From: Hydrogenophaga sp.
Lineage (GTDB): Bacteria > Pseudomonadota > Gammaproteobacteria > Burkholderiales > Burkholderiaceae_C
Assembly (NCBI RefSeq): GCF_026125785.1
Contig: NZ_JAHCKL010000003.1
Location: forward strand, 124,001 to 188,000
DNA: 64,000 bases
Direction of reading: 5' to 3'
The notes under the pieces are model-generated. The model saw nothing but the letters and a program-made list of their open reading frames with translations. It was not told the origin of the DNA and did not search any database. Position 1 is the stretch's first letter; each line of letters opens with the position of its first letter. Shown here piece by piece: positions 51,644 to 54,499 of this stretch. The translations under genes were made by a program, and so were the position numbers.

Positions 51644-53104
51644 ATGATTGCTCGTGAACCTACCCTGGCCCGGTTGGCCACCGCTCAAGGCTTGCTTCTG
51701 GAACCTTTCGGGCTGACGCCTTCGCACCTTCAGCGTGCGTTGGGCGAGATCATGTCGCATGGGGTGGACGATGCGGACTTGTACTTCCAGACCACGCGCA
51801 GCGAGGGCTGGAGTCTGGAGGAAGGCATCGTCAAGACCGGCAGCTTCAGCATCGATCAAGGGGTTGGCGTGCGCGCGGTCAGTGGCGAGAAGACCGCTTT
51901 TGCCTATTCCGATGACCTTTCCTGGGACTCGCTGCTGGATGCGGCCCACACGGTGCGGTCGATTTCGGCGCAAGGCCAGGTGCGCAAGGCACGCGTGCCT
52001 TCGGCCAAGGTGGCGAAGTCACGCTCCCTCTATGCTGGACTGGACCCCATCGCCACCCTGGACAGTACGGCCAAGGTGGCCCTGCTGGAGAAGGTGGAAC
52101 GCCTGGCCAAGGCCAAGGATCCGCGGGTCAAGCAGGTCATGGCCGGTCTGGCCAGCGAGTACGACGTGGTGCTGGTGGCGCGTGCCGACGGCACGCTGGC
52201 GGCCGACGTGCGGCCGCTGATCCGCCTCTCCGTGACGGTGATCGCCGAGCAGGGGGGGCGCCGCGAGTCCGGCACTTCGGGAGGCGGCGGCCGGTTCGGC
52301 CTGGCCTACTTTGACGATGCCATGGTGCAGTCCTATGTGGACGAAGCCGTGTCCTATGCGCTCACCAACCTCGACGCCCGGCCCGCGCCGGCGGGTGAAA
52401 TGGTGGTGGTGCTGGGCTCGGGCTGGCCCGGCATCCTGTTGCACGAGGCCGTGGGCCACGGCCTGGAAGGAGACTTCAACCGCAAGGGCTCCAGCGCCTT
52501 CGCGGGCCGTGTTGGCCAGCGCGTGGCGGCCAAGGGCGTGACCGTGCTGGACGATGGCACCATCGCCGACCGGCGTGGCTCGCTCAACGTGGACGACGAG
52601 GGCCATGCGTCGCAGCGCAACGTACTGATCGAAGACGGCATCCTGCGCGGCTACATCCAGGACGCCATGAATGCGCGCCTCATGGGCGTCAAGCCCACGG
52701 GCAACGGTCGGCGCGAGAGCTACGCCCATGTGCCCATGCCCCGCATGACCAATACCTACATGCTCGGTGGCGACAAGGCACCCGAAGAGATCGTGGCCAG
52801 CATCAAGAAGGGGCTGTACGCCACCAACTTCGGTGGTGGCCAGGTCGACATCACCAGTGGCAAGTTCGTGTTCTCCGCCAGCCAGGCGTATTGGGTGGAG
52901 AACGGCCAGGTCCAGTACCCGGTGAAGGGCGCGACCCTGGTCGGCAACGGCCCGGACGCGCTCACGCGCGTCTCCATGATCGGCAACGACATGCGCCTGG
53001 ACAGTGGCGTGGGCACCTGCGGCAAGGAAGGCCAGAGCGTGCCGGTGGGCGTTGGCCAGCCTACTCTGCGCATCGACGGCCTGACCGTCGGCGGCACCGC
53101 CTGA
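51644..53104 (+). CDS. tldD: Metalloprotease TldD
   Basis: A 486-residue zinc protease subunit that with PmbA (TldE) trims peptides such as microcins and degrades antitoxins. The metal site H267-E-A-V-G-H272 followed by GLEGDFNRKGSSAFAG is diagnostic, as are GSGWPGILLHEAVGH and the distal MPRMTNTYMLGGDKAPEEIV and LVGNGPDALTRVSMIGNDM. pmbA is not in the window. The ATG at 51644 gives the standard length. Confidence 0.95.
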   Translation: MIAREPTLARLATAQGLLLEPFGLTPSHLQRALGEIMSHGVDDADLYFQTTRSEGWSLEEGIVKTGSFSIDQGVGVRAVSGEKTAFAYSDDLSWDSLLDAAHTVRSISAQGQVRKARVPSAKVAKSRSLYAGLDPIATLDSTAKVALLEKVERLAKAKDPRVKQVMAGLASEYDVVLVARADGTLAADVRPLIRLSVTVIAEQGGRRESGTSGGGGRFGLAYFDDAMVQSYVDEAVSYALTNLDARPAPAGEMVVVLGSGWPGILLHEAVGHGLEGDFNRKGSSAFAGRVGQRVAAKGVTVLDDGTIADRRGSLNVDDEGHASQRNVLIEDGILRGYIQDAMNARLMGVKPTGNGRRESYAHVPMPRMTNTYMLGGDKAPEEIVASIKKGLYATNFGGGQVDITSGKFVFSASQAYWVENGQVQYPVKGATLVGNGPDALTRVSMIGNDMRLDSGVGTCGKEGQSVPVGVGQPTLRIDGLTVGGTA

Positions 53105-53154
53105 GCGCGATGATCGCTGGCTGCTGCGAGGCATTGCAGGCGATGGCCCATCGT

Positions 53155-53180
53155 TTGGCTTTCTGCGGCTGTGCTACATT
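53155..53180 (+). promoter_or_regulatory. Candidate aroG promoter placing transcription start near the leader ATG
   Basis: TACATT (53175-53180) is a good -10; the best -35-like match TTGGCT (53155-53160) is 14 bp away, shorter than ideal. Transcription would start around 53187, almost at the leader-peptide ATG (53188), and no Shine-Dalgarno sequence precedes that ATG. The leader may therefore be translated from a leaderless transcript. Confidence 0.4.
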
Positions 53181-53187
53181 TGCGGCC

Positions 53188-53262
53188 ATGACTGCGCGTG
53201 CGTATTTCTTCGGCTTTTACTTTTGGTTCTCTGTCCCCGGCGGACGAGAGGCGAGGCCGTAG
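53188..53262 (+). CDS. Aromatic-rich leader peptide of the aroG attenuator
   Basis: A 24-codon ORF reading MTARA, then YFFGFYFWF, then SVPGGREARP and a TAG stop. Eight of nine residues in the core (codons 6-14, 53203-53229) are aromatic: five Phe, two Tyr, one Trp. Such a run is the hallmark of ribosome-mediated attenuation sensing charged tRNA, and sensing all three amino acids fits the first enzyme of their common pathway, encoded 104 bp downstream. The stop lies 25 nt before the terminator hairpin. It is too short for normal gene finders. Confidence 0.85.
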   Translation: MTARAYFFGFYFWFSVPGGREARP

Positions 53263-53293
53263 GCGCATCACCGAATCTCGAATCAACCGCCGG
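53237..53293 (+). promoter_or_regulatory. Antiterminator of the aroG attenuator
   Basis: CCGGCGG (53237-53243), inside the leader reading frame just after the aromatic codons, is complementary to CCGCCGG (53287-53293), the 5' arm of the terminator. Pairing of these would block the terminator. A ribosome stalled on the early aromatic codons leaves 53237-53243 free; one reaching the stop codon covers it. Confidence 0.7.
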
Positions 53294-53319
53294 CGCTGCA
53301 AGCCCGGCGGTTTTTTTTT
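53285..53319 (+). terminator. Intrinsic terminator (attenuator) upstream of aroG
   Basis: AACCGCCGG (53285-53293) and CCGGCGGTT (53304-53312) form a 9-bp stem with a 10-nt loop, followed by nine T (53311-53319). It lies between the leader peptide and aroG, 47 bp before the aroG ATG, so it can only be an attenuator for aroG. Confidence 0.9.
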
Positions 53320-53365
53320 GTCCCTTCGTTCCTTTTTCACCCGCATCACCCTCAGGAGCTCCACG

Positions 53366-54499
53366 ATGAACGCACGAAACGTTTCCGCCCAAGGCGACGC
53401 CTGGCATGCCCGTCCCGTCGACAAGACCAGTCAGACCGACGACGAACGCATCAAGGACATCACCGTGCTACCCCCTCCTGAACACCTGATTCGCTTCTTC
53501 CCCATCGGCGGTACGCCGGTGGAGGCCCTGATCAGCCAGACGCGCAGGCGCGTGCACCGCATCCTGCAGGGACAGGACGATCGCCTGCTGGTGGTGATTG
53601 GCCCGTGTTCCATTCACGACCCCGCCGCCGCGCTGGACTACGCGCGTCGCCTCAAGCCGCTGCGCGAACAGTACGCGGATTCGCTGGAGATCGTGATGCG
53701 GGTGTATTTCGAGAAGCCCCGTACCACGGTCGGCTGGAAGGGCCTGATCAACGACCCGTACCTGGACGAGAGTTTCCGCATCGATGAAGGTCTGCGCATT
53801 GCGCGGCAATTGCTGATCGAAATCAACCGCGTGGGGGTGCCGGCGGGCAGCGAGTTCCTGGACGTGATCTCGCCTCAGTACATTGGTGACCTGATCGCCT
53901 GGGGGGCGATCGGTGCGCGCACCACCGAAAGTCAGGTGCACCGCGAGCTCGCTTCCGGCCTGTCTGCGCCCATCGGGTTCAAGAACGGTACCGACGGCAA
54001 CATCCGGATTGCCACCGACGCCATCCAGGCGGCGGCGCGCGGTCACCACTTCCTTTCGGTGCACAAGAATGGCCAGGTGGCCATCGTGCGGACCAATGGC
54101 AACAAGGACTGCCACGTGATCCTGCGTGGCGGCAAGACGCCCAACTACGACGCCGTCAGTGTGGCCGCGGCCGTCAAGGACCTGGAAGCCGCCAAGCTCA
54201 CGCCGCGCCTGATGATCGACTGCAGCCACGCCAACAGCAGCAAGCAGCATGAAAGGCAGATGGATGTGGCGCGCGACATCGCCGGCCAGATTGCAGGAGG
54301 CTCGCGCAGCATCTTCGGCGTGATGATCGAAAGCCACATCGAGGCCGGCGCCCAGAAGTTCTCGCCCGGCAAGGACAGCGTGACCGATCTCCGGTACGGC
54401 CAGAGCATCACCGATGCCTGCCTGGGCTGGGACGATTCGGTGCAGACGCTGGCGCTGTTGTCTGACGCGGTCCTCGCGGCGCGGCGCGCCAAAGGCTGA
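53366..54499 (+). CDS. aroG: 3-deoxy-7-phosphoheptulonate synthase (DAHP synthase), class I
   Basis: A 377-residue enzyme joining phosphoenolpyruvate and erythrose-4-phosphate, the entry to the shikimate pathway. Motifs of the AroFGH type: LVVIGPCSIHDPAAALDYAR, YFEKPRTTVGWKGLINDP, WGAIGARTTESQVHRELAS, PIGFKNGTDGN and IDCSHANSSKQ. The N-terminus (IKDITVLPPPEHL) belongs to the feedback-sensitive form, but which amino acid inhibits it cannot be read safely. AGGAG precedes the ATG. Expression is very probably set by the attenuator at 53188-53319. Confidence 0.95.
   Translation: MNARNVSAQGDAWHARPVDKTSQTDDERIKDITVLPPPEHLIRFFPIGGTPVEALISQTRRRVHRILQGQDDRLLVVIGPCSIHDPAAALDYARRLKPLREQYADSLEIVMRVYFEKPRTTVGWKGLINDPYLDESFRIDEGLRIARQLLIEINRVGVPAGSEFLDVISPQYIGDLIAWGAIGARTTESQVHRELASGLSAPIGFKNGTDGNIRIATDAIQAAARGHHFLSVHKNGQVAIVRTNGNKDCHVILRGGKTPNYDAVSVAAAVKDLEAAKLTPRLMIDCSHANSSKQHERQMDVARDIAGQIAGGSRSIFGVMIESHIEAGAQKFSPGKDSVTDLRYGQSITDACLGWDDSVQTLALLSDAVLAARRAKG

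Follow-up and report, generated by a model that had tools for sequence, protein, structure and literature searches.

A predicted transcription attenuator with phenylalanine, tyrosine and tryptophan codons in its leader peptide precedes aroG in Hydrogenophaga and many other Burkholderiales

How does Hydrogenophaga regulate the first step in making aromatic amino acids? In the 64,000-nucleotide stretch of DNA that we analyzed (the window), the DAHP synthase gene aroG lies behind a short open reading frame with the core YFFGFYFWF (five Phe, two Tyr and one Trp), and the question is what this ORF does there. We propose that it encodes the leader peptide of a ribosome-mediated transcription attenuator of the trpL/pheL kind, which very probably controls aroG. 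The proposal builds on the parts of the element (Table 1), their spacing, their conservation, and compensatory changes in their pairing, all of which were observed in the DNA.

Table 1. Predicted parts of the aroG leader and their positions in the window.
Feature	Positions	Strand	Remarks
Promoter-like extended -10, TGCTACATT	53172..53180	+	Ends 7 nt 5' of the leader ATG
Putative leader peptide ORF, MTARAYFFGFYFWFSVPGGREARP	53188..53262	+	ATG at 53188, TAG at 53260-53262; 24 codons plus stop
Aromatic codon cluster (putative sensor), TAT TTC TTC GGC TTT TAC TTT TGG TTC	53203..53229	+	
Segment 1, UUCUCUGUCC	53227..53236	+	Pairs with 53242-53250; overlaps the last Phe codon
Segment 2, CCGGCGGACGAGAGG	53237..53251	+	5' strand of the predicted antiterminator, within the leader ORF
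Segment 3, UCUCG ... CCGCCGG	53276..53293	+	Partner of segment 2; its 3' part is alternatively the partner of segment 4
Predicted intrinsic terminator	53285..53319	+	9-bp stem, 10-nt loop, T run
aroG, class I DAHP synthase, 377 aa	53366..54499	+	Profile match; proposed controlled gene

The trpL and pheL attenuators of E. coli have a four-segment leader layout, and a similar set of parts can be recognized here. CCGGCGG in the leader ORF (53237-53243) can pair with CCGCCGG (53287-53293), which also belongs to the terminator stem, a 9-bp helix of AACCGCCGG (53285-53293) and CCGGCGGTT (53304-53312). The run of nine T's (53311-53319) overlaps the 3' arm, so the last two A-U pairs of the stem are made with T's of the run. 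A first-pass annotation of this DNA had already read the leader ORF, its core, the CCGGCGG/CCGCCGG pairing, and the 9-bp stem with nine T's as an attenuation switch, and its coordinates and pairings are exact. Besides those features, we found a 5' hairpin (segments 1 and 2) and the promoter-like TGCTACATT. aroG itself starts with the ATG at 53366, behind AGGAG at 53354-53358. Its product scores 536.7 bits against the TIGR00034 (aroFGH) profile, with a cut-off of 173.2, and 541.6 bits against NF006723 (AroG), which is below the cut-off of 568.

The leader has 8 aromatic residues in a stretch of 10. No short ORF in 3,000 dinucleotide shuffles of 53100-53365 had more than 6 aromatics per 10 residues (14 shuffles had 6), and because none of the 3,000 reached 7, the leader ORF is not a chance occurrence. 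Elsewhere in the window, counting both strands, ORFs of 10-45 codons had at most 4 aromatics per 10 residues. We also scored 193 regions upstream of aroG: on the sense strand, 107 reach at least 5 aromatics per 10 residues and 75 reach at least 7, while on the antisense strand, as a control, 8 reach 5 and none reaches 7. The RNA of 132 nt that includes the leader folds with a predicted energy of -51.7 kcal/mol (z = -1.95). Since 8 of 200 shuffles were equally stable, the stability of the fold is, alone, modest evidence.

These 193 regions extend up to about 600 bases upstream of each genome's best-scoring DAHP synthase match, so they are a sample of best-scoring matches and not a random draw. 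They come from 29 of the 30 matched genomes in the genus (G020, which has only fragments of the second type, was left out); from 48 of 117 matched genomes in other genera of the family, plus 2 more; from other families of the order (86 loci in 85 of 113 matched genomes, as G095 was used twice); and from other orders (28 loci, the best-scoring of 104 other genomes matched). A region was scored as having a leader if it contained a short ORF with at least 5 aromatics per 10 residues. Four loci that satisfied this rule, L118, L153, L204 and L211, lacked the expected form and were dropped by hand as false positives; L133 and L260, with 4 aromatics per 10 residues, were scored as having no leader.

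After the removal of those four, 103 of the 193 regions have a leader. The first-pass annotation had held that a leader or hairpins missing from close relatives would refute attenuation; we found the leader at 27 of 29 loci in the genus and at all 50 loci that we read from other genera of the family. It is present at 26 of 86 loci in other families of the order and was not found at the other 60, nor was it found at any of the 28 loci from other orders, where two rule-passers had been dropped by hand. The two misses in the genus are L009, which has no start codon before the core and is from a draft genome, and L030, which is at a contig edge. (L009 retains the aromatic core and the terminator and lacks the start codon and the usual promoter, perhaps because of a rearrangement or an assembly fault.) A scan found the terminator behind 102 of the 103 accepted leaders, and that of the remaining one, L059, was found by eye.

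Among loci with species names, 61 meet the leader rule out of 80 (the best 80 of 589 confirmed, with L307 and L308 dropped by hand). Hydrogenophaga pseudoflava (L236) is among the nearest named relatives. The rule-passers include Acidovorax, Variovorax, Polaromonas, Ramlibacter, Comamonas, Rubrivivax, Burkholderia, Paraburkholderia, Caballeronia, Cupriavidus lacunae, Massilia, and Janthinobacterium. The 19 that fail include three loci from Polynucleobacter, two from Cupriavidus (one of them on chromosome 2 of C. necator), loci from Thauera, Azoarcus, Rhodocyclus and Dechloromonas, two from gammaproteobacteria, and one at a contig end. As a separate observation, four loci (L279, L280, L282 and L307) are on contigs labelled as Planctomycetota, Verrucomicrobiia, Gemmataceae and Anaerolineae, and their aroG is 64-71% identical to the window's; these contigs may be misbinned.

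From 30 family leaders we also built a covariance model, which we ran against 300 genomes of the order at E = 0.01. It matches 75 of the 300, and in the genome of the window its single hit is at aroG. For 33 matched genomes, we compared the hits to the position of aroG: 31 of 39 hits are within 350 bases 5' of aroG on the same strand, and the other 8 have E values of 8.9e-4 or worse. In 20 further hit regions, scored for ORF content only, a short ORF with at least 5 aromatics per 10 residues accompanies 14 of the 14 hits with E up to 1.7e-5 and 1 of the 6 weaker ones. Two genomes with accepted leaders (G084 and G126) are absent among the matches listed, and they may lie outside the 300 genomes.

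Does selection act on the leader as codons or as RNA? In the 27 leaders of the genus, the Phe and Tyr codons vary synonymously (for instance, 20 TTT and 7 TTC at one position, 17 TAC and 10 TAT at another), while the codons GTC, GGC, GGA, CGA and GAG of segment 2 are invariant in all 27, fourfold sites included. Across 99 leaders, segment 2 begins 5-15 bases 3' of the last aromatic codon, and its core is in any of three frames relative to the aromatic codons (69, 26 and 4 leaders). Together, the synonymous variation, the invariant codons downstream, and the three frames imply that it is the codons that are conserved in the aromatic run and the RNA in the stretch behind it; because the core of segment 2 is read in three frames, what is conserved there is the RNA pairing and not the tail of the peptide. 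We also noticed a bias in codon choice. At three Phe positions, the genus leaders have TTT 20, 23 and 26 times versus TTC 7, 1 and 1 times; by contrast, six genes of the window have 87 TTC versus 20 TTT. The last Phe codon, where segment 1 pairs, is TTC in 27 of 27.

To quantify the pairing, we put 99 leaders into register, leaving out L071, L079 and L174 (which have no segment 2 by our pattern) and L059 (which has no T5 run). The segments were located by short patterns (GGCGG-like and CCGCC-like), which by construction inflates the share of paired cells, so that the evidence lies in the free positions and the shuffles. Segments 2 and 3 are paired in 658 of 693 cells and segments 3 and 4 in 669 of 693, with 17 double changes each, and none of 2,000 row shuffles matches any of these four values. 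With a single row to represent the genus (73 rows in all), the corresponding values are 477 and 489 of 511, again with 17 double changes each and 0 of 2,000 shuffles. Because row shuffles ignore kinship and the double changes sit in few clades, we count them as few events and not as 17. Compensation is clearest in one clade, where segment 2 has an A and segment 3 a U; the terminator there has a G-U pair instead. (The UCUCG part of segment 3 is visible in the alignments and is outside these counts.)

The first-pass annotation had suggested a test for covarying hairpins upstream of aroG in Burkholderiales. Compensatory changes are present across the family and the order, but not within the close group of the window (alignment A1). 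There, the antiterminator is paired in 94.7% of cells, versus 15-61% in slid controls, with no double change, no measure above the shuffles, and a covariation score (0.040) below the shuffled mean (0.053). The hairpin of segments 1 and 2 is nearly invariant in A1 and is paired in 97.4% of cells, versus 44-65% in slid controls; as it has no double change and no measure above the shuffles, the pairing of segment 1 is weakly tested. At one antiterminator pair of alignment A2, 15 leaders have G-C, 6 have A-U, and 2 are unpaired; three of five measures beat all 500 shuffles, and the other two are not above them (100 and 447 of the 500). From these alignments, the predicted antiterminator is exclusive with the terminator and, at the scale of the family and the order, is supported by covariation.

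Given these parts, we propose the following. RNA polymerase would start at or beside the ATG of the leader, and the ribosome would load onto a leaderless mRNA. If Phe-, Tyr- or Trp-tRNA is scarce, then the ribosome would halt in the aromatic run; segment 2 could then pair with segment 3 as soon as the latter is transcribed, no terminator would form, and aroG would be transcribed. If all three tRNAs are charged, then the ribosome would pass the run, cover segment 2, and then sit between segments 2 and 3. With segment 2 covered or blocked, segment 3 would pair with segment 4, and transcription would stop at the T run. Without translation, a fold model of the window's leader keeps segment 2 off segment 3, which would favor termination.

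We modelled the effect of the ribosome's position by folding 99 nascent RNAs as they would be before segment 4 is made, with the footprint of the ribosome masked, and by considering the antiterminator as formed if its probability was at least 0.5. With the A site one codon 5' of the last aromatic codon, segments 2 and 3 pair in 97 of 99 leaders; with the A site at the last aromatic codon, in 52 of 99; and three codons past it, in none of 99. Two other footprints move the outcome by about one codon. For the window's leader, the probability of the antiterminator is 0.60-0.78 with the A site at Ala5 to Phe8, 0.93-0.99 at Gly9 to Trp13, 0.16 at Phe14, and 0.00 from Ser15 to the last sense codon. 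In this model, then, a ribosome that is halted at the sensor codons frees the antiterminator, and one that is past them blocks it. A ribosome at the stop codon of the window's leader frees segment 2 again in the model (probability 0.67); we think that it blocks the pairing sterically, from its place between the segments, which the fold model does not represent. Without a ribosome, the probability for the window's leader is 0.00. The antiterminator is predicted to form without a ribosome in 41 of the 99 leaders, so the brake by segments 1 and 2 is not general.

Where does the message begin? An extended -10 (at least 6 of 8 matches) ends 6-9 nt 5' of the start codon in 75 of 77 family leaders, in 53 of them as the exact TGCTACATT, and none of the 77 has a sequence resembling a Shine-Dalgarno site. 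Transcription starts a few bases 3' of the -10, which would put the 5' end of the RNA at or next to the leader's ATG. We therefore predict from the sequence that the leader mRNA is leaderless in the window's family. In most of 13 Burkholderia-type loci, a TTATAA-like box is found some 40 bases upstream, so the prediction of a leaderless mRNA is not a general one.

We considered three other explanations. An attenuator that senses only Phe, or Phe and one other amino acid, with the Tyr and Trp codons incidental to the run, seems somewhat unlikely to us. The proposed sensing of all three amino acids is predicted from codon content only, and Phe dominates the leaders (family means of 4.57 F, 1.49 Y and 0.96 W). 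Phe, Tyr and Trp are all present in 74 of 77 family leaders and in 16 of 26 elsewhere; W or Y is missing from the other 3 and 10. Also, the leader aroR of Corynebacterium glutamicum contains Tyr and reportedly does not respond to it (PMC11802643). However, Y is kept in 77 of 77 family leaders and W in 74 of 77. Furthermore, in 70 of 77, W is followed by just one more aromatic residue of the run, which places it near where a halted ribosome still frees segment 2 in the fold model.

The run is also hydrophobic and much alike within the family, as might be expected if the ribosome were stalled by the nascent peptide on sensing a free aromatic amino acid or some other signal (as in TnaC), and not by codon starvation. 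This seems very improbable to us: the order and number of residues differ between families (FFFGYFWFS, FYFYFYGF, FFFGFFLPL), and an arrest that senses excess would act in the wrong direction for the control of a biosynthetic gene. Finally, because the ORF is short and hydrophobic, it could be an ordinary gene for a small membrane protein, followed by a normal terminator and unrelated to the control of aroG. We give this almost no credence, as the stretch after the aromatic codons is kept as RNA and read in different frames; at least 5 bases complementary to the region of the terminator's 5' arm are present in 102 of 102 scanned leaders (a count without a shuffle control); and the element is 5' of aroG in 31 of the 33 genomes compared.

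If the element is an attenuator that senses three amino acids, what role does it have in the order? We tentatively suggest, as a reading that may or may not hold, that it is an OR gate for three charged tRNAs and that, in much of the order, this gate rather than TrpR and TyrR is a main means of controlling, at the level of transcription, the entry into the shikimate pathway. A shortage of any one amino acid would open aroG, and the order of the codons would set the weight of each. The gate would be old: the tail of the peptide, the type of promoter, and the sequences of the segments would have changed over time, but not the logic. In 20 relatives, including the window's own genome and some drafts, we found no Trp repressor (PF01371), which is present in 2 of 14 control genomes (E. 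coli and B. subtilis). Similarly, none of the 20 has a match over the cut-off to NF008085 (PRK10820), which we take to be TyrR, and one control genome does. All 20 have matches below that cut-off, mostly within positions 180-518 of the model. As the relatives are partly drafts, the absence of TrpR and TyrR is not proof.

The second DAHP synthase of the window's genome is 56% identical, and we saw no such leader in the region upstream of it; nor did we see a leader at pheA of this genome. Among 20 regions upstream of DAHP synthases of the second type, only L178 and L189 reach 5 aromatics per 10 residues. The ORF of L178 (5 per 10) appears to overlap the start of the gene, and that of L189 (6 per 10) is rich in W; we take both to be probably chance, although either might be a leader.

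We also noticed a conserved short ORF upstream of trpE in the genus. It ends in W[PL]WRKPA at 15 of 15 loci (L337-L350 and L223, from contig C15 of the window's own genome), as part of GRGAW[PL]WRKPA or, in L345, of GRSVWPWRKPA. Its stop codon is 123-169 nt 5' of trpE, and at 13 of the 15 loci, TGCTACACT or TGTTACACT lies shortly 5' of the ORF. Between the ORF and trpE, none of the 15 loci has a run of more than three T's, and the sequence there is 39-50% C and 25-31% G. Judging from these features, the ORF is a candidate Trp leader, perhaps with Rho-dependent attenuation.

The aroG leader suggests how many bacteria of the order, such as Burkholderia, Acidovorax, Variovorax, and Massilia, may control the first step of aromatic synthesis. 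A single short RNA would combine the signals of three amino acids, and since each codon has its own position relative to segment 2, the weight of each can be tested directly. The leader may also be a control point to relieve in strains that are built to make aromatic compounds.

Is the element already known? At the gathering cut-offs, Rfam has no match anywhere in the window. We considered RF02884 (BcKCsr7) as the same element and rejected it: its full-length match is weak (13.8 bits versus a gathering cut-off of 59), and its sole match over the cut-off in 200 genomes precedes a putative class III aminotransferase gene (as read from the translation), not aroG. A limited literature search found no paper on this aroG leader.

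A comparable leader, aroR, lies upstream of aroF in C. glutamicum and was reportedly described by Mentz in 2013 and Neshat in 2014. According to later sources, aroR has a Phe-Tyr-Phe leader with ribosome-mediated attenuation (PMC4046766, PMC11802643, PMC7356990), and it responds to Phe but not to Tyr (PMC11802643, citing Neshat 2014). The first-pass annotation had called the attenuation of a DAHP synthase by a leader for all three aromatic amino acids much less described than that of the trp and phe operons. The codons for three amino acids stand, but attenuation before a DAHP synthase gene was known from aroR (PMC4046766, PMC11802643). As described there, aroR resembles the aroG leader in function, with aromatic codons in a leader peptide 5' of a DAHP synthase gene. 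Unlike the window's leader, it is actinobacterial and has Phe-Tyr-Phe, with no Trp mentioned.

Like trpL and pheL of E. coli, the aroG leader has sensor codons and a predicted antiterminator that competes with a terminator. But trpL and pheL each sense one amino acid for one branch (PMC11802643), whereas the aroG leader has codons for three and precedes the common first step. Also unlike them, it has segment 2 within the ORF and shows no ribosome binding site. As for trpL (rnTrpL) of Sinorhizobium meliloti, the mRNA begins at the ATG (a prediction in our case) and attenuation controls the gene; the S. meliloti leader senses Trp only, and its RNA and peptide act in trans (PMC7298713). Relative to these known attenuators, what is new in the aroG leader is the codons for three amino acids, the predicted leaderless message (in the family), the placement of segment 2 in the ORF, and the wide spread in the order.
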